64,000 bases of DNA. It comes from Branchiostoma lanceolatum (lineage: Eukaryota > Chordata > Leptocardii > Amphioxiformes > Branchiostomatidae). Each line of letters opens with the position of its first letter. The stretch's first letter is position 1. The stretch is taken from contig NC_089740.1 of NCBI RefSeq assembly GCF_035083965.1, positions 15,890,552-15,954,551 of the forward strand. Direction: 5' to 3'. The translations under genes and the position numbers were made by a program. This document shows, in pieces, positions 1,381 to 57,008 of this stretch. A model generated the notes under the pieces. It searched no databases. It was not told the origin of the DNA and saw only the letters and a program-made list of their open reading frames with translations.

Positions 1381-4300
1381 ATGCCGAGGGCCCGCAAGAA
1401 TGCAGGTGAGCGTGCGGAGGCGGCGTGTGGGCGGGCGGGGTGGCGCTGCGGCCCGCCGAGCCGGGGAGGGGGAGGGGTGGAGGGAGGGAGGGTGCCATGT
1501 TGGTCAGCTCAGACGGCTGCATGCTTGCCTGGGATCGGCGCTGGGAGGGAGAAGCCGGCCTGTTTACGCGATCGCGACATGTGGGGGGTAAACAGGCCCT
1601 ACACGCTACAAACCACGCAAACATCGCGCCTCCAGCCGGCTATTAACGGCCTCAAACCCGCCGGAATCTCTGCCCAGATCGGCAGGGTGTGTAGCCCCGC
1701 CGCCTCTGTTTACTACAGCTTGAACCTTCTCTATAGATATGCAGACGCCCCCCTTCCCCATTCACACACGCACCCCTCCCCTTTTCATCTTTACACACAC
1801 TTCTCTTGCGCATTCACACACACACACACAGACCATGTAGGACTAGTAACACACTCCGTTCTGTTCACGATCCGCCTGAATGACAGTTTGCACGCTAACT
1901 GGTTTGTTTGTATATCTATGTGTGTATCTCTGATCTGATGGGAATTTTGGTTGTTTTGTTTTCATTTGAAGCAACTTTCTCCAACTGGAGTCTGCATTTT
2001 TCCACTCCTTCACATGGACAAGGAGGTTAGAGTCTCGAAATGAGCTGAACAATGTTGACATTGCAACCATGCAATTCAAATTAACTTTGTCTTTTTTTCA
2101 AGTATACATACAAGCACATGCCCCCCTCCCCCCAAGCTGTTTGTATTTATTGTTTACTTGTTTGGTTTTAGGGCTGCATCTGACTTTTAGTGAAACGTTG
2201 TTGTTCAGGTCGCGTGGAAGATTTCACGTTCATGATACTGTTTCCGTGGAACGTTTGCGGTGGTTGCATTTTCACGTTTTTCCTTCTTGATCTCTTCCCA
2301 CGAAGTCGTTACTCTGAGTATGTGTTGATGTAGGTTAGAGTCCAGGTAATGTGATACGCAAGGCAACAGTTACTCAAGCAACTGGATAAAATTTGGAAGA
2401 CATATCCAAATTTCATCTATTAGCATGAGTAACTGTTGTTACCTTGGATGCTTTGAATAGGTGTTTTTGAATGCTCCAGTACGGTACTATAGAATTGTTT
2501 AAACTGCGAAATAAAACCATTACATTTAATGTACACTGATAGTGATAGATACTGAGAGAAGGCATGTCGCTGCAGGGTTGTTAACACTTGAACCAAAGCA
2601 CGGAGGTGAACCCTAACTCCTATCCAGTAGTAAGGTGACTCTGAAACATGCTGGTTGATATCTCCTGAAATGTGGGAAATCCAAACTTCCCCTTGAAAGA
2701 AGATGAGATCACAAAAGTTGTATTGTGAGACTGAAGGTTCAGGTACTTGCAGAAAGTTTGAGCAAGTGAAATTTCTGGTAACTTACGTAGATAAAACATT
2801 GAAGGTAACAAATAGAAAAAGTAAACGGGTCTCAAGCTGTCATCTTGGCTGTTGGGCAGAGTTTGAGTTTATTCAGATCCACAATTGGCTACATTACAGC
2901 TACAGTTAGTGTTCGGTACACAGAAGTGGTCACCTGAGTCAACTCCTACCTTGGGAGCCCGACCTGCTAGGTCCCGACCTGCCTGGTCCCGACCTGCCTG
3001 GTCCCGACCTGCTAGGTCCCGACCTGCTAGGTCCCGACCTGCTTGGTCCCGACCTGCCTGGTCCCGACCTGCCTGGTCCCGACCTGCTAGGTCCCGACCT
3101 GCCTGGTCCCGACCTGCTTGGTCCCGACCTGCCTGGTCCCGACCTGCCTGGTCCCGACCTGCTTGGTCCCGACCTGCCTGGTCCCGACCTGCTTGGTCCC
3201 GACCTGCCTGGTCCCGACCTGCTAGGTCCCGACCTGCCTGGTCCCGACCTGCTAGGTCCCGACCTGCTAGGTCCCGACCTGCTAGGTCCCGACCTGCCTG
3301 GTCCCGACCTGCTTGGTCCCGGCCTGCTTGGTCCCGACCTGCTTGGTCCCGACCTGCTTGGTCCCGACCTGCCTGGTCCCGACCTGCTAGGTCCCGACCT
3401 GCCTGGTCCCGACCTGCTAGGTCCCGACCTGCTAGGTCCCGACCTGCTAGGTCCCGACCTGCCTGGTCCCGACCTGCTTGGTCCCGGCCTGCTTGGTCCC
3501 GACCTGCTTGGTCCCGGCCTGCTTGGTCCCGACCTGCTTGGTCCCGGCCTGCTTGGTCCCGACCTGCTTGGTCCCGACCTGCTTGGTCCCGGCCTGCTTG
3601 GTCCCGGCCCCGGCAGAGGATCTGTTCGGCAGCCAGGCAGGTCTTCCCGAGGTCCTAGACCCGAAACACACTGGGAAAATTTTCTGGATGTATATATATG
3701 GCCTCCGTCGGTCAGTATTCACCATGGTAAAATCCTAATTCACAACAGCCCTACAGCATTGACTATGGCTAAACAGCCCTATACGAGAATGGCAGTCTCT
3801 GCCACAAAAATCACATCTGTAAGCTGACTCAGTTCTGTTGCAAAGCTCTTTTCTGTGGATCCGCTTTTCTTCTGCGCTGTGCATCAGTCTGGCTTCTCCT
3901 GATTTGAGCTGTCTGGACAGTGTGCATCTCCACCTGGATGTATGACAACGACATAGTCTTTGACGTACGCCAACTTTTTTCCTGGGCGTTAATCGGCCCC
4001 ATGCATTGTACAACAGGCATTCTTACGGCCCGTACGAGACTCGCGGGGCCGAATCGCACCCAGGGAAAAGGCTACGTATGTCAGAGACGTACTTTGTTGT
4101 CGCACGCCCAGAAAATTTTCCCAATGTGTATCAGATCCTAGATTAGCATTAGTCGGGATATGTCCCCCATCTGTTTTTCTGGTATTTCTCTCTAGAAGGC
4201 AGAAGTCATACTTTTTTAAGAATTTGTTCCAATAATTATATAAAGAAGTTAGTTTTTGACAAACATTTAAGCATTACATGCATTAAGCAAGAAGTTAGTT

Positions 4301-7300
4301 TGATTGAATCTTTATTTATTCATAAGGCTGCCTACCGTAAATCCAGTTCATTTTTCAGCGGGTTTATTTATACTTAAATCATGCAGCTTAAAGTTAAATG
4401 TGTAGTCTATGAGCAGAGGTGGTATATTTCATGTAAACTGTCTCGTTTGATAACTGAGGTTCTGAAATCCGTTTTGCTCTGTAGTGTGAGAACAATGTCA
4501 GCTACTTTAATTTCAACTTTTGCTCTCAAGATGTTGATATGCCTCAGAAAACTAATGTTGTGTGGTGGTACATTCTTGTGGATAGATAAGGAATGTTCTT
4601 TTTTTCTAAGATTGAGGTTGAAGTGATCCTACAAATACAGTTTAACAATGTTAAATTAAAATGCACCAGGACACTGAAATCTTAAATTCAGGGACACCGA
4701 AATCTTAAATACAGGGACACCGAAATCTTTAATACAGGGACACTGAAATCTTTAATACAGGGACACCGAAATCTTAAATACAGGGACACCGAAATCTTAA
4801 ATACAGGGCTCCAAATTCTTCAAACACACCCAGTATTTCGAGCCCTGTAACATCATAGTATACTCATACAGATGTACATTGTAATACTGTACATACACAT
4901 ATACTAAACGCAGAACTAGAAGTACAATATTTACAACACATTCTTACATTAATCGTTCAAATTTGTATCACTCCGATACAAGACAAATTTCATGTCCCTT
5001 GCCAGCGTTCAACCAAAAGAAGGCTAGGCTAGGCAGGTTTTTGCAATGGTTGATCGGGTAAACAGAAACACAACTTTCATTTCCCTGGGCCTTTGACAAA
5101 CTTTGCTTGAAATTGTGGAACTTTTGCACATGTAACAATGTACAATAACATGGTTGACCCCTGTAACTTGTAAGGGCAATGAAAAGGAGTAGAATTTAGG
5201 AAATTTGGCATGAAAACGTCGAAAATGTTTTTCCCCATCTTTATGTAATAAGACCTTCTGGTTTCTTCAAGCGTGTTGGTTACCGTTAGGTTTGGTCAAA
5301 CCTTTTCTGGAATAACTAAGATTTCAACTGTTCATGGACAAAATGTCACACCCACATGGCGGGAAATGTCCAACATTACAAACACAAACATCTCACACAC
5401 AGCAAGCCCTGCGGGAGCCTGGGAGATCTATCTATCTATTTATTTTTATATAATGACTATCAGCACAGTTAGCCTGGTACCCAGACTGTTCAAGGCTGTA
5501 GTAACACGTGAACGTTCCCTTACAGAACCCGAGGTGCGGCAGGACCTGCGAGGAGCCTGGGAGCTAGTTGATCAGTACAGTTAGGCTGTTTAGTGCTGTA
5601 AAAACATGTGTTAGTCTGGTACCCAGACTGTTTAGGGCTGCAGTAACACACGTGCGTTCCCTTACAGAACCCGAGGTGCGGCAGGACCTGCGAGGAGCCT
5701 GGGAGCTAGTTGATCAGTACAGTTAGGCTGTTTAGTGCTGTAAAAACATGTGTTAGTCTGGTACCCAGACTGTTTAGGGCTGCAGTAACACACGTGTGTT
5801 CCCTTACAGAACCTGAGGTGCGGCAGGACCTGCGAGGAGCCTGGGAGCTAGTTGATCAGTACAGTTAGGCTGTTTAGTGCTGTAGAAACATGTGTTAGGC
5901 TGGTACCCAGACTGTTTAGGGCTGCAGTAACACACGTGTGTTCCCTTACAGAACCTGAGGTGCGGCAGGACCTGCGAGGAGCCTGGGAGCTAGTTGATCA
6001 GTACAGTTAGGCTGTTTAGTGCTGTAGAAACATGTGTTAGGCTGGTACCCAGACTGTTTAGGGCTGCAGTAACACGTGTGTGTTCCCTTACAGAACCTGA
6101 GGTGCGGCAGGACCTCCGCGGAGCCTGGGAGCTAGTCCAGGTCGCCCAGTTCCTCCGGCTGTTCAGATACAAGTTCGGATTTGCCGACATCAACACGCAG
6201 GTTTGTTTGTTGGTTTGTTTGTTTGTTTGTTTGTGTATGGCAGGTATTTTTGGTTCTGGTAACTTTGGAATTTTAGTGAGATTCTGAGCTACTGTAAATG
6301 CAGAAGTTCGCGGTGGTTTGATGTTTGCAGTTTTCGCGGCGACAGTTTCACCACGAACTTAAAACCACCACGAATATTTTTGTCCAACCTTATGGCTGCC
6401 GCAAACTTAAAACCACCGCGAACACTCCATTTTTGCCTTAGCGAGAAATGAAAACCACCAAACTTAAATAAATTTACAGTATGCTATTTTTCGATTACCT
6501 CAATAACTGTTGTACATGCCTACCCTGTGGACCCTGTCAACATAAAATGGCACATTCCATATGCACTGACTTGTTACAGGGAGAAAAAGGGATGATAGCC
6601 TTTAGTTTTACTGATATAAGAACAGGGTGTTCCTGCAGTTATGTTTTAATTGTGTTGTTAGCAGGGTTCACCTACATATGTAAGTGTTATTGTTAAGCAT
6701 TGATGTTATTAGGGGTGATGCTGATAGTCTTATACAGTAACTTGTTGTTTACAAACTGTTCACAGCTTTCTTTACTTTATCATGTTGTTTGCAATATCAT
6801 TGCTACCACCTACACATGTACTATTGAACCATCCTGAAATGTCACAGCATATCAATTCAGAGTTCTGGTTTAAAACCTGGTTACTCCACTCCTTCCCTTT
6901 AGTCACTGATAACAGACAGCGGATGCCGTCTGAAACGTCTGTTTCTGAATTCTATCCAGTTGCTTGAGTAACGGTCATATGGCATTGCTCACAATATTGG
7001 TAACGGTGTTGTTGACATTGTTGTTATTGTTGACATTGTTGTTATTGTTGTTCCAGCGGCTCGAGGCAGAGCTACGTCAGCGTGAAAGCGTCCCGATAGC
7101 GGACACACTCGCGCGACTGCTGCGATACCTCTTCACACGCACAGATATCAGGTGGGTCATAGGTCAGAGTTCATACTATACCTCTTCACGCCACGACATC
7201 AGGTGGGTCAAAGGTCAGAGCTCATGCGATTCTTTATCACATGCAACGATATCAGGTGAGAACATATGTAAGTCAGAGCTGCCCAGCTGATTATAGCGCT

Positions 7301-10300
7301 ATCGCGAACTCAACACCGCTGCAAACACCCCGTTTTCTCCTTACTGCAGACTAAATCACATGAACTTAGATATATTTACAGTGTCGTGAGATTGCAGAGG
7401 ACTTTAGAGGCTGTAAACAGTCATATTTGGACCTGTAGGCTGCAGATGTGGGTTTTATTAAACATGAAATTTCCATAAACACAGACATCAAGCAGATTAT
7501 GTCTGGCAGGGGATCATATGGGGGCCGTCACAAATGTTCATTTTCTCTCCCTTTAAGATGACAGTTTGTTATGCAACCTGCTTGGTTCTACCTATTATCT
7601 TGAAGTTAGCTTTTTGCAGTTACTAAGTTAGTGAAATTAATGGGTTAGTGAGAATTTTTGATTATTGATGTGATTTCTTAGAATTATTGCGAATGAGAGT
7701 TGCTATGTAACCAGTAGCATTATTCTAGTGTACATTTCGGCCAATCAGAAGGCTTATAGGAGTGCAGGTTTAACCAACCAGGGGGCCTGATACATGCAGT
7801 TTAACCAATGGGTGTCCTTGGAAGTTTAACCAATCAGGGGGCCTGATTTATCCAGGTTAACCAATGGGTGTGCTTGTTCCTCCAGGTTGGGCAGTTGGGA
7901 GGCTGATGTGAAGAGAGTTCTGTCGGAGACCGGCAGCCAATGGAAGCCCTTCGCTTCCGGGGCGCAATTCGCAGACATGGAGCCCTACCATCGGGTAGGT
8001 CCGCTGCACGGCTTATGTTGCTGTTGTTGTTGTTGAGTTTTATGTAGATCCACAATTAGCCTCATAAGAGGCTACTCTTCCTGTGGTCTTCACATTTATA
8101 TTTACACATTACAATTAAAATATACAAAGGTATACAAAGTGGCAGTAGGGCACAAAATTAACATAGTTACAGTCCAGTACTTTACTGATTGTTGGCCATT
8201 GTTGTTATTGTCACTGACAAGCCGTGCCATGATGTGGTTTTCTTAGCAAACTAATATTAATTAGAGGTTGACCTCATGCTGATGAGCTGGTCCCCAGTTT
8301 TAATCATCAGTCTGGCAGGCAAATTAATGTCGGTAAGAAGGGACATGGCACTGCTGAGCCAGTCCACCTTGTAATTTATTCATTACAGACATGGGAAATA
8401 AAACAATGTCGTTAAAAAGTGACATGGTACTGCCAAGCCGTTCCCCGGATGTAACATATTCATTACAAATGTAGTCTCGGTTCCTGGCAAACTGATACTG
8501 ATAAGCAGCTGACATGGCACTGCCGAGTCGGTCCCCTTGTGATATATATTCATGGAAAAGTCTGAGACGGGAAATGAAACTGCTGACATCAGCGCAGCGC
8601 CGAGTCTACAGCTCACGGCAGGCACAGGGTTACAGCCCTCCGGCAGCCGATATCGCTGCGTATCTCTGATATTTCTGCGTATGGGACAGGTTTCTGGGTA
8701 AGAATGGTATTTCTGCGTATGGGGCAAGTTTCTGGGTTTGAGTGATATTTCTGTGTATGGGACAAGTTTCTGGGTATGAGTGATATTTCTGCGTATGCGA
8801 GAAGTTTCCAGGTACGTATAGATACGAAAGATATTTCTGCGTATGGAACTAGTTTCTGGGTATGACAGATATTTCTGTGTATGGAACAGGCTTTTTGGGT
8901 TTGAGAGATATTTCAGCATTGACAGACATTTCAGGGTACAGGACACATTCTTTAGTATAAGAGACAGATTCAGTATGATAGTGTTTATCAGTATGACAGT
9001 AGCACAGTTCCAGTGTGATAACAGCACGTGTTGTTTTGTGCAGCTGGTGTTCCTGAAGGGTGTGTAGAACAGTATGACAGTAGGACAGTTCCAGTGTGAT
9101 AACAGGACGTGTTGTTTTATGCAGCTGGTGTTCCTGAAGGGTGTGTAGAACAGTATGACAGTAGGACAGTTCCAGTGTGATAACAGCACATGTTGTTTTG
9201 TGCAGCTGGTGTTCCTGAAGGGCGTTGCGGACCACGTGTTCGAGGAGAAGGTCGAGGAGTTGTCGGAGTATCTGGATGACACGTACGACCCAGAAGACAT
9301 GGTGAGCACTTTCACTTGTTCCTCAAGACGTGGTGAGCACTTTCACTTGTTCCTCAAGACATGGTGAGGACTGACCGTTGTTTGTAGAGTTGTTAAGACT
9401 GCAGTATGTGCAGTAATCACATGTTGTTATTTACCTGTTGTTATTTACCTGTTGTTGTTACTGACCTGTTATTGTTGTCTGCCCGCCCAGCGAGCCGTTC
9501 CCATTGGCCAGGACAGTCTGAAGAACACCTACTGGTACTTTGATGGTGAGTCCTCCTGGAGTCGAGCTTGTAGATGACTTACTAGGAGATTAAGACTTGG
9601 TGCTTCTAGGATGGTGGCATGTTTTATCTGGGCAACATTGTAGCACCTCCAAGTAGAAAACATACATTTTAGTGTGCATGCACAACAGCTTTCATTTTTA
9701 TTAGGTTATTTTAGTGCAATCTACAATTCTATGCAAAGTACCCTGATGTTCTGTAGTCTTACTTTGTCCTATCAAGGTCATCTAAATGTTAAACTCTGTC
9801 CCCTTTAGGTCATGTGCAACCTAAATTTTGACCTCTGACCCCTATAGCCCATTTGTACATACCTGCTCTGTAACCTAAGAGATAACTCACACATCAAGGA
9901 AACAATAAAGAAGGCCAATAGGGTAGCAGCTGCATGTAAATCTACACTATACCATCATGACAACTTCAACCGGTTCGAGTATGGAGACACGTTATGGAAA
10001 AGTATAATCACACCGAGTATTAATTACGGATGTGCTACATGGGCCCCCTCTTCACTAAATGACACTAGAAAAATACAAAGTATACAATATCAGTTCGGGA
10101 AGTTCCTTTTCAAGGCCCCAAATGGAACATCTAAAACGGCCATTATGGGAGAGCTAGGATGGCTTCCAATAAACAAACTACAGGACAAGTTAAGACTCAA
10201 ATTTTATGATAGGATACTCAGGATGGAAAACCATAGATGGCCAAAAATGATCCTTGCACAAATATTTGAATTAAGCAGACTAGGTAAGAAGATCCCTTGG

Positions 10301-13118
10301 AACTGGACGATCTACATGAAGAAACTGCTTACATCCATTGGCCTAGACCATATATGGTGCAATATTTCCCCTATTAATATGCATTGGGTGAAGTCCGCGT
10401 TAGATATACACAATTACACTTGCAGAGAGGAATTTAAAAATGACACTAAGCTACTTAAGTCCCCACTTACCGACCTGAAATATAACTCTAAATTCGAAAA
10501 CTATCTGAAAGACTACTCACGCCCAGAATCATGTACACTAAAATTCAAGGCCAGGGCTAATGTCTTAGAATTAGAAGGGAGGAAACTAAGCTGGAAAAAC
10601 TATAAAGGGGATGGTAAATGTAAAATATGCAACACGGGGGAAACTGAAACCATTGATCATTTCATACTAACTTGTCCGGGTTATCTTAAAGAAAGAACAG
10701 AAATGCTGTTACGTATGGAGAAGGATCTGTCCCGAAGTGGAGAAATGGAACCCTGGTATATGTTCATGAGCGGGAGCGCTAAAACCAAGCTGACATTCCT
10801 TCTAGGCTATGAAGGCCCCTCTGAAATAAAGATCGACACATACATTAAGACTTATCTGTGTAAGGCTTGGAAGATACGAAACTCGTAGGTAGCCCCATCA
10901 ACGACAATCACTCTGTATCATGACCGGGACCTTTTCCTTCCTCTCCGACACCATACAGCTCTCACAAATTACTTTTTATGTTATGATTTACATGACTTAA
11001 TATGCTTTATCTATAGCTAAGCGACATTATGTTCTGATCAAGACGTTAAGTTCTGTTCTATACGCTTTAATTTGCTTACATTATGTCCCGTTCAAGAATT
11101 TAAGTTCTGTCTTATACGACTTATTTTGCCTACGTTATGTTTTTGTCCTAGACCTTAAGCTCTGTTCTATACGACTTAATTTGCTTACATTATGTTTGAG
11201 TTCAAGGCTTTAAGTTTTGTTCTATACGACCTAATTTGCTTACAATATGTTTTGTTCAAGACCTTAAGTTCTATCTATATGACTTAATCTGCCTACTTTA
11301 TGTTTTGTTCAAGACTTTAAGTTTTATTTTGTACGACTTAATTCACCTACATTATGTTTTGTTCGAGACTTTATGTTTTGTTTACACGACTTAATTCGCC
11401 TACTATCTTAAATCAAGCGACAGCATGTTCTTATACACGACCTTCTGTTATGACATATACGGATATATCATTATCACCATTACTATGCTATTGTTATTAT
11501 GTATTGTTGTATTTATAATTGTCCATACTTGATTTGATTTGATTTGTAACGCACACGTGACAGGAAGCGTTGTGCCACCGATTTTAAGGTGAAATAAAGT
11601 TCAAAGTTCAAAGTTCAACCTGAGGGGGGAAGTTGGGGAAGGTCGTATCTAGGTCACCAAATGGCAGCCGCCCAGACCCTTAAGACAGGATGAGCATTGT
11701 TCCCCCCAGACCTGAGATTGTACAAGGAGACGGTCAGGAGGAAGGGGGGGAAGTTGGAGTGTGTCTGCAGCCCCCCCTCATGCTGCAGCACCCCCCCCCC
11801 CAAACCTCACCCCTCATGTGTAATAAGTGACCATTGTTCCCCCCAGACCTGAGACTGTACAAGGAGACAGTTGGGAGGAAGGGGGAGAAGTGGGAGTGTG
11901 TCTGCAGCAGTCTTAAGGAGTGGACTTCCTTCGTGAAGAAGTTCCGCAAGTCGTCGCACCCGCAGGAGAAGGAGCTGTACGAGTTTCTGCACGGCCAGCT
12001 GCTACCTCTGATCCTGGGGCCGCTACAGACCCTGGAGGGGATCTCTCAGGTAACACCCCCCCTCTAACTACCCCCCTCTAACTACCCCCCTACACACACA
12101 CAGGTAACCCCCCTCCAGCTGTTACCTCTGAATAGTCTGATCCTGGGGCCGCTACAGACCCTGGAGGGGATCTCTCAGGTAACACCCCCGTCTAACTACC
12201 ACCCTCTGGTAAAACCCCCCTCCCCCCTCCCCCCCTCTCAGGTAACAACACCCTTTAACCCTTTAACCTATCCCCCTTCAGGTAACCCCCCTCTAACTAC
12301 CCCCATATTTACTATGTACAATAGTTGTTGCCAAGTTCTTCTTTATGTCGTAGCAAAGTCAGCATCTTAAAGATTGGGTTAAGATTGTTGTTCCTCCTTA
12401 GGGTATAAGAGTGAAAGTTAAGATTGTTGTTCCTCCTTAAGGAATAAGAATGAGAGTTAAGATTGTTGTTCCTCCTTAAGGAATAAGAATGAGAGTTATG
12501 ATTGTTGTTCCTCCTTAAGAAGTAAGAATGAGAGTTAAAATTCTTGTTCCTTAAGGAGAGAGGATGAGGGGTAAGGAGGGAGGATAAGAGTTAAGATTGT
12601 TCCTTAAGGAGTGAGGATGAGGTTTAAAATTGTTGTTCTCTCCCAGGATGCTGACAGGAAGAGGTTTGAGACGGCTGAGTTCTTAAGGAGGGAGGATGAG
12701 GGTTAAGATAGTTCCTTAAGGAGGGAGGATATAAGAGTTAAGATTGTTCCTTAAGGAGTGAGGATAAAAGTAAAGATGGTTGTTCTCCCCCAGGATGCTG
12801 ACAGGAGGAGGTTTGAGACGGCCGAGTTCTTAAGGAGGGAGGATGAGGGTTAAGATTGTTCCTTAAGGAGGGAGTATGAGGGTTAAGATTGTTCCTTAAG
12901 GAGAGAGGATAAAAGTTGAGATCGTTGTTCTTCCCCAGGATGCTGACAGGAGGAGGTTCGAGACGGCCGAGTTCTTAAGGAGGGAGGATGAGGAGGTGAA
13001 CCAGGTCGTGCGACCTTCCCGCTACGACGGCAACAACATCACCCGACGCCGAGGGCCCCTGGCAGTTCCGAGCAGTACTGCAACCTCCGCCGCCTCAGTT
13101 GCCCCACCAGAAAATGCG
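1381..13118 (+). CDS. Exons 1-8 of the fusion gene: DDT/WHIM, CECR2-like part
   Basis: Exon 2 encodes WELVQVAQFLRLFRYKFGF, matching the start of CECR2's DDT region. Exon 3 continues with RLEAELRQRE and LLRYLF. Exons 4-6 give a WHIM-like stretch, including FLKGVADHVFEEKVEELSEY and the PIGQDSLKNTYWYFD motif, which corresponds to the 'G-x-YWYF' motif of CECR2 and RSF1. Exon 7 encodes LRLYKE, then a Trp-rich block (KWECVCSSLKEW) and ELYEFL, again in CECR2 order. Exon 8 (60 codons) is basic and acidic (RRRFETAEFLRREDEE); I cannot assign it to either parent. The family binds ISWI ATPases. Exon 8 starts and ends in phase 0. Reading on past its donor gives about 16 more codons before a stop, so a short DDT-only form is possible. 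Confidence 0.7.
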
Positions 13119-16100
13119 GTAGGTTTAACGGCAGCGTTTCCTGTTGTCCTTTCTGAATGGGTTCCCTGAGAGCAGATCCTCTGACAAGGTTCTGACTGAC
13201 CAGGGATGCCGCTAGGTCACCTGTGGCCACAGTCTTCAACTGTGAGCTGTCGGACAGTAATTTTGCCCCTCAGGAAGCCTTAGAATGCCCCCTTTTAACT
13301 AGAAAAACCCTGCTGAAAGGATTCTTCAGTCGTTCCCTATGTGTATCTAAGAATGTTGTAGAGGAATGTTGAAAGTTTTTACAAGAGTTTCTCAACATAG
13401 AAGTCCTGTATAACAACAGTGCCTCCCTCCCCCCCATCCCACCCCCAGGCTGAGACCCATGCGCTGGAATCAGAGCAGAACTCTGCCCAGAACGATCCAC
13501 CTGAGAGGGAACCAGACGTAACCAGTCCAAACCAGTTCAGACCTGTTCCAACCCAGGATGGAACCGGTCCCAAACCGGATAGAACCAGTCCCACACCAGA
13601 CAGAACCGGTCCCAGCCAGGACGTCACCAGTCCCAACCTGAACATAACCAGTCCAAACCAGGACAAAACCGGTCCAAACCAGTTCAGAAGCGGTTCCAGC
13701 CAGTCTCAGGAGGACACAGCTGGTTCTGACTGGTCCAGCGCTGACCTGCTGCCCGTCAAGCCCTCAGGAAAGAAGCGGAAACGAGAGACGTCGACGGATT
13801 CGCGGGACAGCAGTGGGACGGGACAGAGCGACACAAGCAAGGGTGACATGAGTAAGCCGTTTTCTGTCCCCTCTTTACTAGAGCTGTGTACCTAAACAAA
13901 TTTTAGGTACAGGTACAGGTACATGGGTTAAGGTACAGGTCGGGACCTGAACCAGTACCTGAACTACTTGTTTGGAAAATGCTAGATTTTTGATAAGGAC
14001 AAAAGCATGTTTGAACTGGTGAAAACATAATTTTTGATTGTGCCAGGTATTATTTTTATGAAAACACAGATGAAAATTTGACTCCAGCCATGCAAATGTG
14101 TTTTCTGTGCTTTAAAGTGGCTTTAGAGCACTGCCACGGTAATTTCATAGTAATTTTATCTGTCAAAGTGACCATCCCCTGAGTCAGGTCCAGTACCGAT
14201 ACAGCAGGGTCAGGTATTTTGGACCTGTACCTAATTCATTGTACCAGGTACTGTATCGGTACAGCGTACTGGTACACAGCTCTACTCTTTACGTAACCAT
14301 GCCAGTAACTGTTCACTGTGACGTCACATACAGCCAGTAAACAATGATTTGATCACCTTAGAAAAGGAAATGTCAAGAGGGAATAATTTTGTTTCAAGGT
14401 GTGAGATTTAGTCATGAAAGAATGGTGTATGGTTTGCACCGATGCATATCTTTTGTGATTGAATAATGCCATTTCTGTAGAGTACAAACAGGAAATATTG
14501 CCTTGTTTCTGAATTGAATTGAAATTTCGTTTTTAGGATGTAAGGATTCCGGAGTTGCCAAAAGAATGACAAGGCAGGACGGGGAAAAAAAGTGTTTCAA
14601 ATGTTGGTCCAACCCTGACGGTTTGTTTCAGGAACCCCTGAGCTGATGGGACCCCCTCCCGCGCCACCCCCCTCCAGCCTCCCCCCTGCTGCCGATGCCC
14701 CCCCTCTGCAGAACGTCCCAGCAAAGAAACAGCAGCAGTATGCCTACATCTTTTCTACGGAGCTGGCGAACAAGGCGAGTCTTACATAACTAAAACCAGC
14801 ACACAACAAACAAACAAACAAACAAACAAACTATCAAGGTTCATAAGCTGGCGAACAAGGCGAGTTCTGTGGAGTAGAGTTTGTCACACATGAGTATAGA
14901 GGTTCATAAGCTGGCGAACAAGGCGAGTTCTGTGGAGTGTGTTGCACATGACTATAGAGGTTCAGAATCTGCTTCAAACAGCTCACAGTTTGCTGCAATA
15001 TGATCCTTTTGTTATATGATCCTTTCGTAACATGATTCCCTCTGTAACTTGATTCCCTGAATTTGATACATCTATAATCCTTTCCTTAAGTAACATGATC
15101 CTCCTGTCCCCCTAGGCAGCAGAGGCCGTACTGCAGGGGCGAGTGCAGTCCATTGTGGCGTTCCACATGGAACACGTGACACGAGCACGGATCGACCGCG
15201 TGCGTCACAGCGAACAGGTGGGTTACGTCAGCTTTATTCTGCCTTGATTTATCTATTAATTAGCTTAGAACTGAATACCCCATATATTAGTAATGTCTAG
15301 ATAATCAAATACTCCAAATTTCATATGCTGTTTCCATAGCAACAGCTGTTTCAGTTACAGTCTGTTAACCCATGGCAACAGCTGTGTCAGATGCAGTTTG
15401 GTAACCCATGGCAACAGCTGTGTCAGATGCAGTTTGGTAACCCATAGCAACAGCTGTATCAGATGCAGTTTGGTAACCCATAGCAACAGCTGTGTCAGAT
15501 GTAGTTTGGTAACCCATAGCAACAGCTGTATCAGATGCAGTTTGGTAACCCATAGCAACAGCTGTTTCAGTTACAGTCTGTTAACCCATGGCAACAGCTG
15601 TGTCAGTTACAGTCTGTTAACCCATGGCAACAGCTGTGTCAGTTACAGTCTGTAACCCATGGCAACAGCTGACAGGTGCTCTCCCCATCTCTCCCCATCT
15701 GCAGGTGCAGTCTGGTAACCCGTGGCAACAGATGCAGGCGAGCCAGCTGGGGTTCGGGTCGGACCTGGGGCTGAACCCCTCCGCAGGGGGTCCGGCGCCC
15801 CAGCTGCCGTCCAAGCCGCCCCCGCCCTACCCGGGCAGCGCCACTCTGGAGGCGGGGGGGACGGAGGGCCTGACCCCGGAGCAGCTGCGGCACCGGCAGG
15901 AGCGGCTCATGACCATCCAGCGCATGCACAAGCTGCTGTTCCCCGAGCAGGCCCAGACAGCGCCCCCTAGCGACTCTCTGGCGGCGCAGCAGCAGCTCGA
16001 CCTGGCCAGCCTGCAGGGACAGCTGCAAGGTCAGGCCCTGCAAGGTCAAGGCCAGCCGCGGCCCGGCATGCAGATTGGCCCGGCCCGACCTGTGGGCCCG

Positions 16101-19100
16101 GGGGGGCTCACCATGCAGCAGCCCAGCCCGGGAAACCTGCCCAACAACCAGATGATGTCACCGCATGGACTGATGACATCACAGGCAAACATGATGACAT
16201 CGCAGGGTTGGAGTGACCCTTCCCAGGGTGCACCAGCCCACAAGGCGGCCATGATGGGGCTGGGGTCGCCGGGGTCGGAGGGCATGGGGTCGCCGGGGCA
16301 GCTGGGGGAGGATCAGATGTCGGCGGCGCAGATCGAGTGGCGGCGGCTGGAAGAGAGCTTCTACCGCGAGAAACGGAAACGGATGCTGGAGCAGCAGATG
16401 ATGCGCGGCCAGCCCTACCCGGGACAGAGGTAACCTAACTTTCACTTTCTCACAGAGGTAACTTTCACTTTCACTTTCTTACAGCCCTCCCCTGGACAGA
16501 GGTAACACACTTTCACTTTCTTACAGCCCTACTTGGGACAGAGGTAACCCAACTTTCACTTTCACTTTCTTACAGCCCTACCTGGGACAGAGGTAATGCA
16601 AGTTTCACTTTCTTACAGCCGAACTGGGAAAAACTCCATACAAGAAACACCATTTCCAGGAAAAACTGTTTCCAGGAAAAAAAACTTGTTCAGGAAAGAA
16701 AAAATTTCCAGGGAATGCACTTTTCAGGAAAAAGGCTTTACCAGAAAATCACTTTCCAGGAAAAAACTTCTCCAATAACACACTCTCTGCTCCCCTTACA
16801 GGTACCCCGCTCCACAGCAGTTCTTACCTCAGGACTACGATGGCCCACCAGACGCCCAGGAGGCCTCGCAGACTATGCAGCCCCCGCCGCCCTACCAGGA
16901 CCTGGCGCGGTTACCGCGACAACCACGACAGCAAACCGGCTTCTCTACCTCATTTGGCGAGCCCTACGCGCTGCAGTCCCAGCCACAGGCACAGGGGGCG
17001 CCCCAGGACAGACACCTGCTGCTGCAGTCCCAGTCCCAGCCACAGGGGGCGCCCCAGGACAGACACCTGCTGCTGCAGTCCCAGTCCCAGCCACAGGGGG
17101 CGCCCCAGGACAGACACCTGCTTCTGCAGTCCCAGTCCCAGCCACAGGGGGCGCCCCAGGACAGACACCTGCTGCTGCAGTCCCAGTCCCAGCCACAGGG
17201 GGCTCCACAGGACAGACATCTGCTGCTGCAGTCCCAGTCCCAGCCACAGGGGGCGCCCCAGGACAGACACCTGCTGCTGCAGTCCCAGTCCCAGCCACAG
17301 GGGGCTCCACAGGACAGACATCTGCTGCTGCAGTCCCAGTCCCAGCCACAGGGGGCGCCCCAGGACGCCCCTAACTTCAGTATTAGCCAGCAGCTGCAGG
17401 AAAGGGCGCGGCTGTCGGCCCAGCGGGAGCAGCTGCCGCAGTACGCAGCAGGTCACGCAGCAGGCCACGCAGCCGGTCACGCAGCCGGGCAGCCACACCG
17501 CTTCATGTACCCCATGCAGGACCGCCCTCGCCCGCAGGTCTGTATCTGTGCAACTGGTGGAACCATGTAAAACCGGTATAACGGGTTTCGTCTTGTACAG
17601 CCGGTCTATCCGGTAGAACCATGCATAACTGCATAACACACAAGCTTCTGTATCTGATTATGATTTTGATTATAGTTCTAACAGAAACAAATTTTGGAAT
17701 GCTTCAATCCTGGGTTAATTAGTCTGATTCCTGTAATGACGACTCGTTCTTGTTTCTTCTTTTCTGAACAGGTCTCCCCTTCACAACAATCCGCCATGCA
17801 GAGACTGATGATGTCACAGCAGAGTCTGATGATGTCACAGCAGGGACCGATGACATCACCGGGCATGATGTCACCGGAGGGCTCAAACGGAGGTCTGCTG
17901 ATGGAGTTCCCGCGAACCGGCGCCGACCGGAACACACGGCCACGACCGCAGTCTGCCACCGGGAACGACATGATGTCACCTAACTCCGTAGCCAGCCCGC
18001 AGGGTCAGAGGCCACTAGGGGTCAAGGGGCAGAGTTCAGGTGCAGAAGACACCCCCTCAGAGAGCAGCCAATCGAGTCAGCAGCTGCTAGACCAGCCGGA
18101 AACCAGCAAGCCGAGGTCTAACCAGCCGCCAACATCCCAGAACCAGCCCCAAACCAGTCAGCATCTGCAAAATCAGCCCCCAACCAGTCAGCATCTGCAA
18201 AACCAGCCCCAAACCAGTCAGCATCTACAAAACCAGCCCCCAACCAGTCAGCATCTGCAAAATCAGCCCCCAACCAGTCAGCATCTGCAAAACCAGCCCC
18301 CAACCAGTCAGCATCTGCAAAATCAGCCCCCAACCGGTCAGCATCTACAAAACCAGCCCCAAACCACAACCCAACCCTCGCCCAGCCAGCCGATGACGCC
18401 CCAGCCCCCCTCCAACCAGGCAGCAGCCAACGCACCAGCTACCAGCCGGCCTGGGGCAAGCCAGCCACAAACCTTTGCCCCCACGACCTTCGCCCCCACG
18501 ACCTTTGCCCCCAGCTCCCTGCAGCAGCTGGAGCAGCATTTCTCCAAGCGGTTCATGCCGGGTTTCGACGAAGCGCCCTTCAGCAAAACCACGGCAATCA
18601 CCACCACTAACGCCCTGACAGCCGTGTCCACTACCGTTACCATGACAACTGTGGCTGTGTCCAGTCGCACTGGAACCTCGGCTTCCGGTGGTTCTGTTGC
18701 CACGGTGCCCAAGTTCAAGGCTCCCCCTCCCCCGACTAACGGGGTGAAGCCCGTGCCCAGCAGTGAGACCGATAGTGTGACGTCCCCCGCCAGCTCAGAG
18801 ACCAGAACTCTGTCGCCTGCCGTGTCATCGCCAGCACAGGTCAAAGGCCAAGGGTCAGCGGAGGGAGCAGGGCAAAGTTCAAAGCCCATGTCCCCAGCAG
18901 TGAAGTCGCCTGCAGTGCCCCAGGCTGCCCAGCAGGGGTCCTCGCCAGCCCCCGTGCCGTCGCCCAAACCGAGACGGCAGCCATCGCCGGCCATGGTTGC
19001 CTCGCCGGCGGGGAAGTCGCTCCGCTCGCCCGCCCCGGGGTCGCCCTTCGCCCAGCCCCTCAAGTCACCCCTGGAGAAAAAGTCCCCAAAGATTCCGCCG

Positions 19101-21233
19101 CCATTGAAGTCGCCCTCCGAGGTCAAATCTCCCATGATGCCTCAGCGTCAGTCGCCAGGACTGAGGTCTCCCACAACTCCTCAGGAAACGGCCAGCGGTG
19201 TTCCGAACTCTCCCGCTGTGTCCATCAAGTCCCCCGCAGTCCTTAGGTCTCCCAGCATGCCCAGCAATTCTCCCATGATGCAGCAGGTGAAGTCGCCTAT
19301 GAGGCGGCAGGAGAGCTCCCCCGTGGTTACCATGGTGAGGCAGGAAATACCCAAAACCTTACTGCCCGAGAGGTCACAGGTCATCCCCACTACGATGCGA
19401 CCTCTGTTACCAAGGCAACCACAGCAGCTGGACACCATGAGTCAAGGTCAGAGGCTAGCCATGATGGCAGGTCAAAGTGCAATGTTAGGTCAAAGTTCAA
19501 TGGGGCCACAGATGTCAGTATCCGTAGGGCAGTTCAGCCATCAGATGAGCGGTTTCCCGCGGCAACCATCGCCAGGGCAACGGCAACTGATGGGCCGCCC
19601 AGCGCAGTACTTGGCCCGTCCTTCAGGGGGCGACTTGGAGAGCCAGTCGCGAGGGAACATCATGTACTCGCAGTCGCAGCTGGTGCAGATGCAGGCTCGC
19701 TACATGGCCGGCCTGAGGCAGGACACCCCCGCCGCAGCAATGGTACCGCCTGGGCTGAGACAGGACACTCCAACCCCAGCAATGGTACCATCCGGGCTGA
19801 GACAGGACACCCCCGCTGCAGCAATGGTACCTTCCCAGCCCAGGCCTACCTTTGAACCCCAGACCCCTGTGGAAATCGGACCAAACACGGAGTTCGCGCT
19901 GGCTTTCCAGAAACGGGGGCCCCCCTCCCCCCCTCAGAACAGGTTCCCCAGCCCCCAGCAGCCACACCCCGGGGATCCAAGATATCCCCACCCCGGGGAC
20001 ATGCGATTCAGTGAGCCTCAACAAATAATGGATGCAAGATATCACCACCCTGATGACAGGTTTACCCACCCAGGGGATACTAGGTTACCCCACCCCGGGG
20101 ACAGTAGATTTACCCATCCCGGGGACACCAGGTTTCCCAATCCAGGGGAGAACAGGTTTCCCCACCCAGGGGAGAACAGGTTTCCCCACCCAGGGGACAG
20201 CAGGTTAACCCACCCTGGTGACAACAGGTTTCCCCACCCAGGGGACAGCAGGTTTCCCCACCCCGGGGACAACAGGTTTCCCCACCCTGGGGATATTAGA
20301 TTCCCCCATCCAGGAGACAGCAGGTTCCCTCACGCTCAGCAAGGTAACCAGAGATATCCCCACCCAGGGGAGAGACATCCCCACCCCATGGACAGCAGGT
20401 TTCCCCACCCCGGGGATGGCCGTTACGTGCCGGGGGAGGGGCGGTACGTGCCCGTGGGGGAGGGGCGGTTCATGGCGGCGCGGATGGCCGGGATGCTGCA
20501 GGATGGGCTGGAGGAGGCGTCTCTCATGGACCGCTCCGTCGCGCTGCAGAACCTACAGAACATGCTCGGCCCCCCGCGCTCCGTCGCAGAGTCGCTTAGC
20601 AACAACATGGAGGCGTTTCCCGGACAACGGCAAATGGTGGAAGAGATGAGGTCGCAAGAGGCAGTGCAAAGCATGTTGGGAAGGATGATGCAGTCCCACA
20701 ATGCCTTGGGAAATGCTCCCATGCAAAAGTCTGGCATGTCTGCTGGACTTTCCCATGGTGCAATGCAAGGACCTCGGATGACCCCACCATACAGTGCAGC
20801 GGACGGCAGCATGGCAGCAGGTCAAGGTTCAGTGGCGGGTCAAATGTCAGTAGGTCAAATGTCCCCCGGGGGTCTGATGTTCAAAGCGCCGGTGGCAGTG
20901 GGGGAGGGTGGCATGGGCGGCCCCCGGGGGGTGGGGGAAGCCCCCATGGGCCCCATGCAGGACATCCAGCAGACCAGGAAGGCTCAGCGCTTCGTGTTGC
21001 CCACGGAAACACCAACCAGAACTCTGCAGTACTTTCCCGCGGGGAAGCCGGAGCGCGCGCCGCACCCCGGCATGATGCAGCCCGCCATGAGCGTGCCGAA
21101 CCTCTCGGCCAATCAGGAGCCGCAGAAGAGGATTTCCTTCTCGGAGGAGAACCTGATGCAGGCTGGGGGCAGAGCAATGAACCCTGGGTATCCTGCAATG
21201 AACCATGGGTACTCAGGCTACCCTGGACAGTAG
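1381..21233 (+). CDS. Fusion gene: CECR2-like DDT/WHIM region joined to a BCL9/Legless protein
   Basis: Fourteen exons join with consistent phase: 1381-1405, 6094-6200, 7057-7151, 7886-7994, 9206-9301, 9491-9545, 11847-12049, 12939-13118, 13449-13851, 14632-14774, 15116-15217, 15705-16429, 16802-17537, 17772-21233. The total is 6441 nt, about 2146 residues. Residues 9-230 resemble the N-terminal module of CECR2, an ISWI remodeller partner. Residues from about 291 are BCL9-like: a KRKRE-type basic motif, HD1 near 461-490, HD2 near 562-588 and LQYFP near 2077. BCL9 bridges beta-catenin to Pygopus in Wnt-driven transcription, so the product should be nuclear. No bromodomain, normally present in CECR2, was found. 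The start ATG 1381 is chosen because exon 1 (MPRARKNA) joins exon 2 in phase. Intron 10 uses a GC donor. The alternative is two overlapping genes; no separate BCL9 start is visible. Confidence 0.75.
2960..3609. repeat. 15-bp minisatellite in intron 1
   Basis: About 43 copies of the unit CCCGACCTGCYWGGT, varying at two positions (C/T, T/A, A/G). Because 15 is a multiple of three, one frame stays open on each strand and translates as RPAWS/RPARS. It is not a gene. Confidence 0.9.
3650..4142 (-). mobile_element. Retroelement fragment with zinc finger, bounded by inverted repeats
   Basis: Near-identical 22-bp inverted repeats bound the segment (CTGGGAAAATTTTCTGG core at about 3667-3688 and its complement at about 4109-4130). 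Inside, the minus strand (about 4013-3735) encodes YRCDFCGRDCHSRIGLFSH, the zinc-finger tail typical of non-LTR retrotransposon ORFs, followed by a stop. No intact reverse transcriptase remains. The combination of inverted termini and a LINE-type tail is unusual; it may be a composite or a captured fragment. Confidence 0.5.
4663..4808. repeat. 23-bp minisatellite in intron 1
   Basis: Six copies of CAGGGACACCGAAATCTTAAATA with a few substitutions. Confidence 0.85.
4804..4847. mobile_element. Miniature palindromic element with CAGGGCTC ends
   Basis: A 44-bp segment begins CAGGGCTCCAAAT and ends ATTTCGAGCCCTG, an inverted terminal pair of the hAT type. It resembles the ends of the larger element at 43805-44191. 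No clear target duplication is seen. Confidence 0.4.
5482..6093 (+). repeat. Mirage array: four decoy copies of the exon 2 acceptor
   Basis: Four 142-bp tandem copies precede real exon 2. Each contains the intron end, the CAG acceptor and the first ~45 nt of the exon. Decoy acceptors fall before 5526, 5668, 5810 and 5952; the real one is before 6094. Each decoy diverges after GAGCTAGTT and reaches a stop within a few codons, with no evident donor. Confidence 0.88.
6290..6481. mobile_element. MITE with TACTGTAAAT termini in intron 2
   Basis: A 192-bp segment starts TACTGTAAAT and ends ATTTACAGTA, with internal inverted segments containing GCGGTGGTTT / AAACCACCGCG. A related half-copy lies at about 7300-7384. 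This looks like a short non-autonomous DNA transposon. Confidence 0.5.
7127..7256 (+). repeat. Mirage array at the exon 3 donor
   Basis: Three imperfect ~52-bp copies carry the exon 3 end plus donor (GATATCAG|GTGGGTCA). The first is the real junction at 7151/7152. Confidence 0.75.
7765..7885. repeat. Two-copy ~64-bp repeat before exon 4
   Basis: The phrase GTTTAACCAAT...GGGGGCCTGAT...CCAATGGGTGT occurs twice and runs into the exon 4 acceptor. Only intronic sequence is repeated. Confidence 0.6.
8280..8900. repeat. Two degenerate repeat arrays in intron 4
   Basis: About 8280-8560 holds roughly four ~80-bp copies built on GACATGGCACTGCCGAGTCGGTCCCC. About 8655-8900 holds five to six ~40-bp copies built on GATATTTCTGCGTATGGGAC. 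Neither codes for protein. Confidence 0.6.
8990..9205 (+). repeat. Mirage array at the exon 5 acceptor
   Basis: Two ~81-bp upstream copies (decoy exon starts near 9041 and 9122) repeat the acceptor GTGCAG and the first exon bases CTGGTGTTCCTGAAGGG, then reach TGTGTAG, a stop. The real exon starts at 9206. Confidence 0.82.
9292..9366 (+). repeat. Mirage array at the exon 5 donor
   Basis: The exon end plus donor (AAGACATG|GTGAGCACTTTC) is repeated about 2.5 times at 31-33 bp spacing, placing further GTGAG donors downstream of the real one at 9302. Confidence 0.7.
9870..11618 (+). mobile_element. 5'-truncated non-LTR retrotransposon (LINE) in intron 6
   Basis: An open frame from about 9870 to the TAG ending at 10888 encodes the C-terminal end of a LINE polyprotein. 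It includes INYGCATWAPSS, IQYQFGKFLFKAP, GELGWLP and a Cys-His motif (CKICNTGETETIDHFILTC) typical of LINE ORF2 tails. The reverse-transcriptase catalytic core is missing, so this is a dead 5'-truncated copy. The 3' UTR carries ~58-bp repeats (11020-11410, TTAATTTGCTTACATTATG type) and ends in a short (AAAGTTC)n tail at about 11596-11618, as in L2/CR1-like elements. It lies in sense orientation within the host gene; the clade is not certain. Confidence 0.82.
11700..11846 (+). repeat. Mirage copy of the exon 7 acceptor
   Basis: One upstream copy (about 11708-11776) repeats CCCCCCAGACCTGAGATTGTAC and the following exon bases; the reading frame is damaged by base changes. The real exon starts at 11847. 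Confidence 0.78.
12003..12300 (+). repeat. Mirage copy of the exon 7 donor and C-rich repeats
   Basis: The end of exon 7 (ATCCTGGGGCCGCTACAG ... TCTCAG|GTAACA) reappears once at about 12116-12185, giving a second donor. Flanking DNA is a degenerate CCCCCCTCTAACTA repeat. Confidence 0.75.
12360..12640. repeat. ~39-bp minisatellite in intron 7
   Basis: About six copies of TTAAGATTGTTGTTCCTCCTTAAGGAATAAGAATGAGAG-like sequence, grading into the mirage units that follow. Confidence 0.7.
12640..12938 (+). repeat. Mirage array at the exon 8 acceptor
   Basis: Two ~146-bp upstream copies (decoy starts near 12648 and 12794) repeat CCCAG|GATGCTGACAGG and the first ~50 nt of exon 8, then read GATGAGGGTTAAG, a stop. 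The real exon at 12939 reads GATGAGGAGGTG instead. Confidence 0.85.
13449..21233 (+). CDS. BCL9: Exons 9-14 of the fusion gene: BCL9/Legless part
   Basis: Exon 9 ends with GKKRKRETSTDSRDSS, matching the conserved N-terminal basic motif of vertebrate BCL9. Exons 10-11 encode HD1 (IFSTELANK joined to AAEAVLQGRVQSIVAFH), the Pygopus PHD-binding helix. Exon 12 encodes HD2 (LTPEQLRHRQERL ... LLFPEQ), the beta-catenin-binding helix. Exons 12-14 are long, proline-, glutamine- and methionine-rich and disordered, as in BCL9. Near the end, PTRTLQYFPAGKPE matches the BCL9 C-terminal motif. Coding minisatellites expand the tail: a 17-residue unit repeated about 7 times (16990-17360), QPPTSQHLQN repeats (18120-18360), SP/KSP clusters (18780-19330) and HPGD-RFP repeats (19960-20420). 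Exon 9 has no in-frame ATG until its last codons, so it probably depends on the upstream exons for initiation. Confidence 0.88.
13879..14284. mobile_element. hAT-like MITE with 8-bp target duplication, intron 9
   Basis: A 406-bp element starts TAGAGCTGTGTACC and ends GGTACACAGCTCTA, and is flanked on both sides by CTCTTTAC (13871-13878 and 14285-14292). Eight-base duplications are the hAT signature. There is no transposase. Internal GGTACAGGT motifs relate it to the elements at 36255 and 53471. It sits 27 bp after the exon 9 donor. Confidence 0.85.
14775..14960 (+). repeat. Mirage copies of the exon 10 GC donor
   Basis: CTGGCGAACAAG|GCGAGT, the end of exon 10 with its non-canonical GC donor, recurs at about 14848 and 14913. 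A short CAAA array lies at 14805-14830. Confidence 0.75.
15340..15704 (+). repeat. Mirage array at the exon 12 acceptor
   Basis: About nine ~37-bp copies of CAGTYTGGTAACCCATGGCAACAGCTGTRTCAGATG precede exon 12. The real exon starts at 15705 with GTGCAGTCTGGTAACCCGTGG, so each unit repeats the exon's first bases and an AG. The copies carry E-box CAGCTG motifs. Confidence 0.8.
16412..16620 (+). repeat. Mirage array at the exon 12 donor
   Basis: The exon end plus donor (CCTACCCGGGACAGAG|GTAACC) and ~45 bp of intron (TTTCACTTTCTTACAGCC) are repeated about four times. Each unit contains both a donor and a CTTACAG acceptor-like site. Confidence 0.8.
16630..16790. repeat. Irregular TTTCCAGGAAAA repeats in intron 12
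   Basis: Degenerate ~20-bp units; a related array lies in the 3' UTR (21515-21750). Three contain the palindrome TTCCAGGAA (16654, 16670, 16754). Confidence 0.6.
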
Positions 21234-37478: not shown

Positions 37479-38103
37479 TCATAATATTTCGTTTTTCGTC
37501 TATATCATACTTTCAAACCCCATTTCACCTCCCATTTGGAAAACTTTCTGCGAAAACTGAAATGTGCAAGGTCAAAGCTCAAGTTTGCTGTTAACTAGCG
37601 TCTATGTGATTCATCATAAAACGCCTGAAACCTTTTACCTTCAGGATGGCGAGTGTGTTTCACCTCCCATCTCCACACTTGTTGGGTTCTGCTGACATTA
37701 ACTTATTAAGTACTTCGATAAGGCCACACCAGTTTTTTCTTTAGTTATGATTTTCAGCAAAGTGAAAATGAAAACGGGGCTGGGAGGAAAGTCCCCATGT
37801 CAAGCCTCAAGGTACCGACTGAAATCTTATCTTCTGTTTTTATTTTTGATAGCAGGGAACCTTTTTTAACACATTGTCATGGTGTTGCCCAGCCAAGGCT
37901 GTCTCCAGCTTTAAACTCCTGTAGGTTTGGCTCTATGGGAGAGAGTGAGTGAGTGAGTGAGTGAGTGAGTGTGTGTGAGGTTTGGCTCGATGTCTGGGAG
38001 CCCATGTTGTTCATTTCCATGGTGAAATCTGTCATTCTAAGCTTAACAAAACAAATTTCCATCAGTTTCATGTCACAAAGCTCAGCTTTTTGGATGGACG
38101 GGT

Positions 38104-39480: not shown

Positions 39481-39499
39481 AGCGGGAGCGCCTCAATAA

Positions 39500-39672
39500 A
39501 CACGGGGCACGTTGGCGACCTCACTGCAAACCCAGCGCGCAATGACTTCCATCGACTAAAAACAATCTTTTTAGGCTGTGTGCTTTTTGCACTGCATTTG
39601 CATGATATACAGAGTGTCTGGGGTGACACAAATCCAACTTGGCGCGGTCGCGGTGAGGTCGCCAACGTGCCG
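39500..39672. mobile_element. Short element with GGCACGTTGGCGACCTCAC termini
   Basis: GGCACGTTGGCGACCTCAC near 39505 is inverted near 39652-39672 (GTGAGGTCGCCAACGTGCC). About 170 bp in all. It borders the GC-rich array directly; no target duplication was seen. Confidence 0.5.
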
Positions 39673-40249
39673 CAGTCTAACGAAATTCCTGCTTATGAGG
39701 AAAATAAATGGAGTCGGGAGCCGTGCGGAGAAACCAAAGCATCAGTTTTTATTAGCCACTCTACTCTGTGTTGTCTGACATGCAGAATGCAGACGAGCGC
39801 CCGCCGACAACACATCGCGCCGAGTGCCCCCCGCGGCGCGCCCGCGGCAGACCCGGGGCGAAGCCCGCGCTAATGAAACGGCAGGATTCGACCGCGGGCC
39901 TGGAGCATCATGGGAGCGGCCGAGGGGAGACAGGAGGAGCTGGAGTGTCGACAATGAGACAAAGAAACAGTATACAGGATCCCCCTATCAGAGCCCCAGG
40001 AATGGAGCCTTTAGCCATACAGGATTCCCCTATCACTGCTCCAAACAGTTACAGGATTTCTCCATGAGAGCCCTAGACAGCTACAGGATTTCCCCATCAG
40101 AGCCCCAGATTGAACGGTTTTAGAGTCACCCTATGTGGGACCGAGGTGGGGGCAGAGCCCCCCAATTTTAACCCAGATACCCAGAATAACCTGTCTGGGA
40201 CCCAAATGGAAATCCCCGTCTGGGCCCCTGACAGAGCCTTTCATGGAGG
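39673..40249. other. GC-rich stretch, no supported gene
   Basis: 39780-39960 is GC-rich and open in more than one frame, one of which contains a KRQDSTAGLEHHGSGR phrase. No signal-peptide exon or compatible upstream junction was found, so no gene is called. Short ACAGGAT-CCCCATCAGAGCCCC repeats follow (39980-40110). Confidence 0.35.

Positions 40250-43417: not shown

Positions 43418-57008
<13,591 letters not shown>

Follow-up and report, generated by a model that had tools for sequence, protein, structure and literature searches.

Introduction

RSF1, BAZ1A/ACF1, BPTF/NURF301 and Ioc3 follow the common general DDT/WHIM scheme of ISWI partners, and CECR2 belongs to the complex named CERF. A link to Wnt signalling has been drawn for another such complex: a 2009 study by Song et al. 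reportedly places NURF in Wingless output in Drosophila, where it works as a separate complex. The DDT domain of CECR2 is required for SNF2L binding (PMC7948406), and Ioc3, ACF and BAZ1B are listed as WSD proteins (PMC11789628). On the Wnt side, BCL9 is described as an adaptor whose HD1 binds the PHD finger of Pygo and whose HD2 binds beta-catenin (PMC2726290), and the C-terminus of beta-catenin recruits ISWI, among other factors (PMC8450413). Here we analysed 64,000 nucleotides of the genome of the lancelet Branchiostoma lanceolatum (contig NC_089740.1, positions 15,890,552 to 15,954,551; hereafter the window), whose forward strand carries, at 1381-21233, a gene predicted to join both systems in one protein. 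The architecture is well supported, and we are confident that it represents a single gene in which a DDT-WSD module is fused to BCL9.

One open frame joins a DDT-WSD module to BCL9

We rebuilt the gene independently from the sequence as 14 exons, which give 6441 nucleotides including the stop. Scripted exon joining left no internal stop and 13 of 13 junctions in phase, reproducing the single 2146-codon frame without phase conflict of the original prediction. The junction that links the two halves, between exon 8 (12939-13118) and exon 9 (13449-13851; all gene features lie on the forward strand), is in phase 0 on both sides and has a GT donor and an AG acceptor, the latter preceded by a pyrimidine-rich stretch. 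This part of the earlier description held, whereas the claim of a good donor did not: exon 8 ends before gtaggt, and the site GCG|gtaggt retains only 6 of 9 consensus positions, which puts it among the weaker of the 13 donors (scores of 5-8 of 9, with those of exons 8, 9 and 12 below 7). Elsewhere, exon 10 has a GC donor (AAG|gcgagt), making intron 10 (14775-15115) a GC-AG intron.

The same fused architecture was found in public predictions from two other Branchiostoma species. The B. floridae protein "B-cell CLL/lymphoma 9 protein-like isoform X2" (P0003; 1979 amino acids, from a cluster of four members) spans the whole lancelet model with 1637 of 2164 columns identical, and it shares the exon 1 peptide (MPRARKNA, from the start codon at 1381 to 1405; MPRARKNAE in B. 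floridae). In B. belcheri, "PREDICTED: B-cell CLL/lymphoma 9-like protein" (P0002; 1271 amino acids) holds the module together with PF11502; its per-exon counts were confined to the first 525 residues because the protein looks disordered after HD1, with repeated blocks and an apparently frame-shifted tail. Over model residues 9-255, identity amounts to 226/247 in B. floridae and 222/247 in B. belcheri, and the 35-residue linker that ends exon 8 (residues 256-290) keeps 29/35 and 30/35, respectively. The exon 8|9 join reads PPENA|AETHA, PPENM|ADIHV and PPENA|AETQL in the set formed by the window model, B. floridae and B. belcheri. Since both the order of parts and this join recur in the two species, the model is more than a product of chance.

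The public annotation of B. lanceolatum itself lists two proteins at this locus, Hypp9156 (P0001) and "SPRR3" (P0004), and reading through exon 8 into intron 8 meets a stop after 16 further codons, as would be expected if BCL9 and a short DDT-WSD gene next to it had been merged by the original reader and by gene prediction alike. We consider such a merger highly improbable given the fused predictions in two other species and the lack of a plausible start for a separate BCL9 gene in exon 9 or introns 6-8. Exon 9 has one in-frame Met (residue 424), which is Thr in B. floridae and Ala in B. belcheri, and the next Met, residue 430, lies in exon 10. The original prediction had also raised a separate ATG exon feeding exon 9; none with a phase-0 donor of at least 7/9 was found in introns 6 and 7 or in the 330-bp intron 8, a scan that could overlook a weak-donor exon because three real donors (exons 8, 9 and 12) score below 7. 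No AATAAA occurs between 11593 and 23446, which is weak evidence because an intron of 330 bp would seldom carry one by chance. The unconserved exon 9 Met and the absence of both such an ATG exon and AATAAA make an independent BCL9 start inside intron 8 unlikely, though a 5' exon with a weak donor or at a greater distance could still supply one. CpG observed/expected ratios in 300-bp windows (0.95 with a GC content of 0.68 at 1200; 0.28 with 0.49 at 13200) hint at a promoter at exon 1, and only hint at it because ratios are also high elsewhere at lower GC content (1.1 at 6900 and 1.13 at 11100).

Exon-edge repeats may explain the split annotation

Both annotated proteins match the single fused model. 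Hypp9156 (479 amino acids) aligns with model residues 9-230 over 239 columns, of which 220 are identities, 2 mismatches and 17 gaps, and SPRR3 (1618 amino acids) with residues 472-2146 over 1675 columns (1585 identities, 30 mismatches, 60 gap columns). Exons 9 and 10 are missing from both, although HD1 requires exon 10. Two decoy copies of the start of exon 8, at 12647-12706 and 12794-12853, retain an AG acceptor and run into an in-frame stop following RREDEG, the peptide with which Hypp9156 ends; exon 8 itself is the third copy and lacks the early stop. At the other end, SPRR3 starts on MTIE, encoded by a 12-nucleotide piece inside a repeat array (14948-14959), and this piece joined to exon 11 yields its first 38 residues, skipping exons 9 and 10. 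Because of the decoy-exon stop and the repeat-derived start, the ends of both proteins look artefactual, and we infer that these two features, along with the GC donor of exon 10, can explain the split. The name SPRR3 fits because PHPGD repeats in the protein match the Cornifin/SPRR profile. The gene illustrates how a conserved regulator may be split and misnamed through repeat-rich intron edges, here as Hypp9156 and SPRR3.

Use of the two decoy copies (starting at 12647 and 12794) in splicing might alternatively be genuine, so that the locus yields, besides the fusion, a truncated protein with DDT-WSD only, which could act as an ISWI competitor or be a target of nonsense-mediated decay. The AG acceptors, the reading to RREDEG and the ending of the public Hypp9156 model in that peptide would suit such a product, and the four-member B. 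floridae cluster with its "isoform X2" label hints at multiple isoforms. Neither the B. floridae nor the B. belcheri proteins examined use a decoy, however, and in the amphioxus Adh3 and globin genes tandem copies at exon edges, known as "mirages", leave regular splicing undisturbed (PMC3087553). We therefore regard the truncated product as distinctly unlikely.

The present gene resembles these mirage minisatellites in having tandem copies that cross exon-intron boundaries together with splice signals (PMC3087553); it differs from them in having several affected boundaries, with decoys able to explain a split annotation. Mirage-type tandem repeats with splice signals were seen at exons 2, 5, 7, 8 and 12, and the exon-edge arrays occupy 5468-6136 (142-bp units duplicating the exon 2 acceptor and the beginning of that exon), 8989-9222, 11690-11910, 12572-12993 and 16424-16629. 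An enrichment of tandem copies at exon boundaries was considered and found unsupported: counts made with 40-nucleotide probes were 6/26 at boundaries, against 51/249 in intron interiors, 16/97 in exon interiors and 79/300 in the rest of the window. With a boundary rate no higher than background, the locus is simply repeat-rich.

The front half resembles the DDT-WSD region of CECR2

Similarity searches bear out the CECR2-like nature that had been assigned to the front module. Residues 15-249 of the B. floridae protein are colinear with Diabrotica dikar (E 3e-25 by BLASTP, with 59 identities across 247 columns), an insect protein that carries a bromodomain whose best PDB matches are CECR2. Compared with a provisional human CECR2 sequence, the module aligned over residues 15-169 with E 4.6e-15 and over residues 178-220 with E 5e-4. 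A likewise provisional RSF1 sequence gave E 1e-7, a similarity below that to CECR2 and dikar. The DDT-like region begins in exon 2 (6094-6200; DLRGAWELVQVAQFLRLFRYKFGFADINTQ, aligned with dikar DIQSWWEVPSIAHFCSLFRTAF), continues through exons 3 (7057-7151) and 4 (7886-7994) and ends in exon 5 (9206-9301), in each case by alignment with dikar. The WSD-like region starts in exon 6 (9491-9545), where a sub-cutoff PF15613 match and invariant alignment columns pick out a GQD triplet of the GxD type and a YWYF motif, and its remainder lies in exon 7 (11847-12049; LRLYKETVGRKGEKWECVCSSLKEW...), by Pfam and dikar alignment; the module itself ends in exon 8. The GxD triplet and YWYF align with dikar, and the module and dikar agree at W, F, R, Y and E residues in both the DDT-like and the WSD-like part. 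The module is also rich in W/F/Y/I/L/V/C (34%, as in ordered protein, against 10-23% in the remaining protein).

A Pfam scan of the model gave only matches below cutoff (KIAA2026_hel PF23450, E 0.0012; WSD PF15613, E 0.013; SNAPC2, E 0.19). The WSD match, over residues 144-195, reached 16.1 bits against a cutoff of 25.4, with 13.6 bits for Hypp9156, and at E up to 1 PF15613 had no match in the B. floridae and B. belcheri fused proteins or in dikar. DDT (PF02791) was not matched in the scan of the model, and dikar itself reaches 17.4 bits against a cutoff of 22. By sequence comparison, the N-terminal module of about 250 residues is a probable CECR2-type DDT-WSD.

The layout resembles that of CECR2 and dikar, in which an N-terminal DDT-like region is followed by a WSD-like region, colinear with dikar over 247 columns. 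It departs from theirs in that the bromodomain is absent and BCL9 is attached instead. That the bromodomain expected from CECR2 is missing had been noted earlier and was upheld for the fused gene: tblastn with the dikar bromodomain returned nothing convincing in the 64-kb window (two rows, best E 1.6), and Pfam at E up to 1 detected none in the 1979-residue B. floridae protein. Pfam reported no PHD finger in the model or the fused proteins.

The back half carries the features of BCL9

The assignment of the back half to BCL9 was confirmed by HD1, HD2 and a WRKLQ-type box, which BCL9, BCL9L and Legless have in common and which follow the order seen in BCL9L. Exon 9 is the first BCL9 exon, with counterparts in B. 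floridae and B. belcheri; it encodes a low-complexity linker and a KPSGKKRKRETSTDSRD box (13758-13808) that by eye resembles KGKVKRERSVSVDSGE of vertebrate BCL9L. HD1 starts in exon 10 (14632-14774) and is completed in exon 11 (15116-15217; AAEAVLQGRVQSIVAFHMEHV), covering 14733-14774 and 15116-15178. Its match to human BCL9 HD1 (PDB 2vp7_B) had E 1.1e-7, over residues 171-200 (exons 10-11) of a 298-residue query. Exon 12 (15705-16429) holds the other two elements. HD2, the predicted beta-catenin-binding helix (EGLTPEQLRHRQERLMTIQRMHKLLFPEQ, 15864-15950), matched PF11502 with E 1.6e-8 (34.7 bits against a cutoff of 25) and weakly matched solved BCL9 HD2 peptides (3sl9_C, E 0.03; 2gl7_C, E 0.038). 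The conserved WRKLQ-type box is QMSAAQIEWRRLEESFYREKRKRMLE (16314-16391), whose B. floridae counterpart gave E 2e-6 against BCL9L (P0007).

Exon 13 (16802-17537) contains in-frame repeats of 51 nucleotides (17 residues), and exon 14 (17772-21233) encodes the long low-complexity tail to the stop, including the PHPGD repeats that match the Cornifin/SPRR profile. Such a long Pro/Ser/Gln-rich tail is common to BCL9, BCL9L and Legless. A KRKRETSTDS box and, in exon 14 (21021-21038), a C-terminal TLQYFP correspond, by eye, to the KRKRxxSxDS-like box and TLQYFP of BCL9L, in the same order. What the lancelet protein adds, relative to BCL9L of Tiliqua and Cebus, is the N-terminal DDT-WSD module, which is about 250 residues long; these two proteins matched the module at chance level (E 0.79; E 3.6 and 6.3).

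A possible route for ISWI to Wnt target genes

From this architecture, the gene product is probably a BCL9/Legless-type Wnt co-activator whose CECR2-type DDT-WSD module would bring ISWI to beta-catenin and Pygopus. By analogy with other BCL9 proteins, HD2 would bind beta-catenin and HD1 the PHD finger of Pygopus, while the DDT-WSD module would bind an ISWI ATPase by analogy with the CECR2 DDT. The latter step, binding of ISWI by the lancelet module, we judge somewhat likelier than its opposite. Because one protein holds both the module and HD1/HD2, ISWI could then be brought to beta-catenin/TCF sites, and the fused protein would carry ISWI remodelling to TCF/beta-catenin target genes; for this recruitment, which again is argued by analogy, we put the chances at about even. 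The Pygo-BCL9 module may in turn replace the chromatin reading of the bromodomain that CECR2 has and the lancelet protein lost. Like NURF, which reportedly acts as an ISWI complex in Drosophila Wingless output (Song et al. 2009), this would be an ISWI connection to a Wnt response. It would differ from NURF, a separate complex, in that the ISWI-partner-like module is covalently part of the BCL9 adaptor.

In the Paramecium ICOPs, the GxD triplet of WSD is dispensable for binding ISWI (PMC11789628), so that the conserved GQD of the lancelet module is no proof of it. The fusion may accordingly be real while its divergent DDT-WSD no longer binds ISWI and serves another contact, be it with DNA, with another enhanceosome subunit or for stability. 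A low identity to dikar and CECR2 (24-30%), the Pfam scores of the module below their cutoffs and, on the Paramecium evidence, a retained triplet that ISWI binding does not need all lean this way. They have to be set against identity of about 90% with B. floridae and B. belcheri over 247 residues and the W, F, R, Y and E residues at which the module agrees with dikar, from which we conclude that the fold is maintained, and against the need for the CECR2 DDT in SNF2L binding (PMC7948406). On balance, we find a module that has lost ISWI binding rather unlikely, and favour the module as the ISWI-docking part of the co-activator.

It is a tentative proposal that in lancelets BCL9 has acquired, by fusion, the half of a CECR2-type subunit that docks ISWI, and that nucleosome remodelling is in this way hard-wired to beta-catenin/Pygopus. 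If true, the gene would be a "Rosetta stone" fusion, implying that CECR2-type ISWI complexes and BCL9-Pygo share Wnt target genes where they are separate, including in vertebrates. It would also mean that reading of H3K4 methylation by Pygo-BCL9 can substitute for the acetyl-lysine-reading bromodomain of CECR2. With its ISWI-partner-like module, the natural BCL9 conserved in three Branchiostoma species suggests that Wnt signalling may be physically and directly connected to nucleosome remodelling.

Distribution of the fusion

Searching for proteins that hold both the module and BCL9 parts returned B. floridae and B. belcheri. The first protein search used residues 1-748 of the 2146 and covered proteins of up to 1309 amino acids, complemented by the longer P0002 and P0003 queries. 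With the module alone (1979-residue B. floridae query, P0003), only the B. floridae and B. belcheri proteins emerged among 2633 candidates of about 1088-3463 amino acids. A search with residues 1-520 of B. belcheri P0002 scored the 7993 candidates that shared most words and recovered two vertebrate BCL9L clusters and dikar besides SPRR3 and the B. floridae and B. belcheri proteins. Because these searches depend on shared exact words and score the top word-sharing candidates, the absence of the fusion elsewhere is weak evidence.

The module could instead date far back in BCL9 history, with vertebrates and insects having lost it and further invertebrates still possessing it, and distant fused proteins are what an exact-word search limited to the 7993 top candidates for P0002 might miss. 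The module-only search nevertheless stopped at B. floridae and B. belcheri, and the two vertebrate BCL9L proteins, as given above, match the module only by chance; an ancient origin is unlikely in our view. No published description of a DDT-BCL9 protein was found in the open-licence papers searched, one of which counts the bromodomain genes of B. belcheri (PMC9454494). The statement that no such protein had been described agrees with these papers, yet public protein databases already contain fused sequences under BCL9 names. The DDT-WSD/BCL9 fusion conserved in three Branchiostoma species is a BCL9 variant unremarked in the literature searched.

Other features of the window

Two introns of the gene contain further repeats or mobile-element sequence. 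In intron 1, a 15-bp minisatellite of 43 copies (2958-3606) produces several open frames. Intron 6 holds a 346-residue open frame (9848-10885) resembling the terminal part of a non-LTR (long terminal repeat) retrotransposon, with a match to PF13966 zf-RVT below cutoff (E 0.001).

Downstream, on the minus strand at 45125-56990, lie exon pieces that resemble, mostly by eye, a G-protein alpha subunit gene, presumably of the Gq type; a 40-residue piece matched PF00503 below cutoff (E 2.9e-4). GC-rich repeats at 37877-39873 (GC content 0.73 at 38001-40000) leave several frames open on both strands, and a short-unit repeat array at 62379-62960 gives long open frames of the TNNTTG type.
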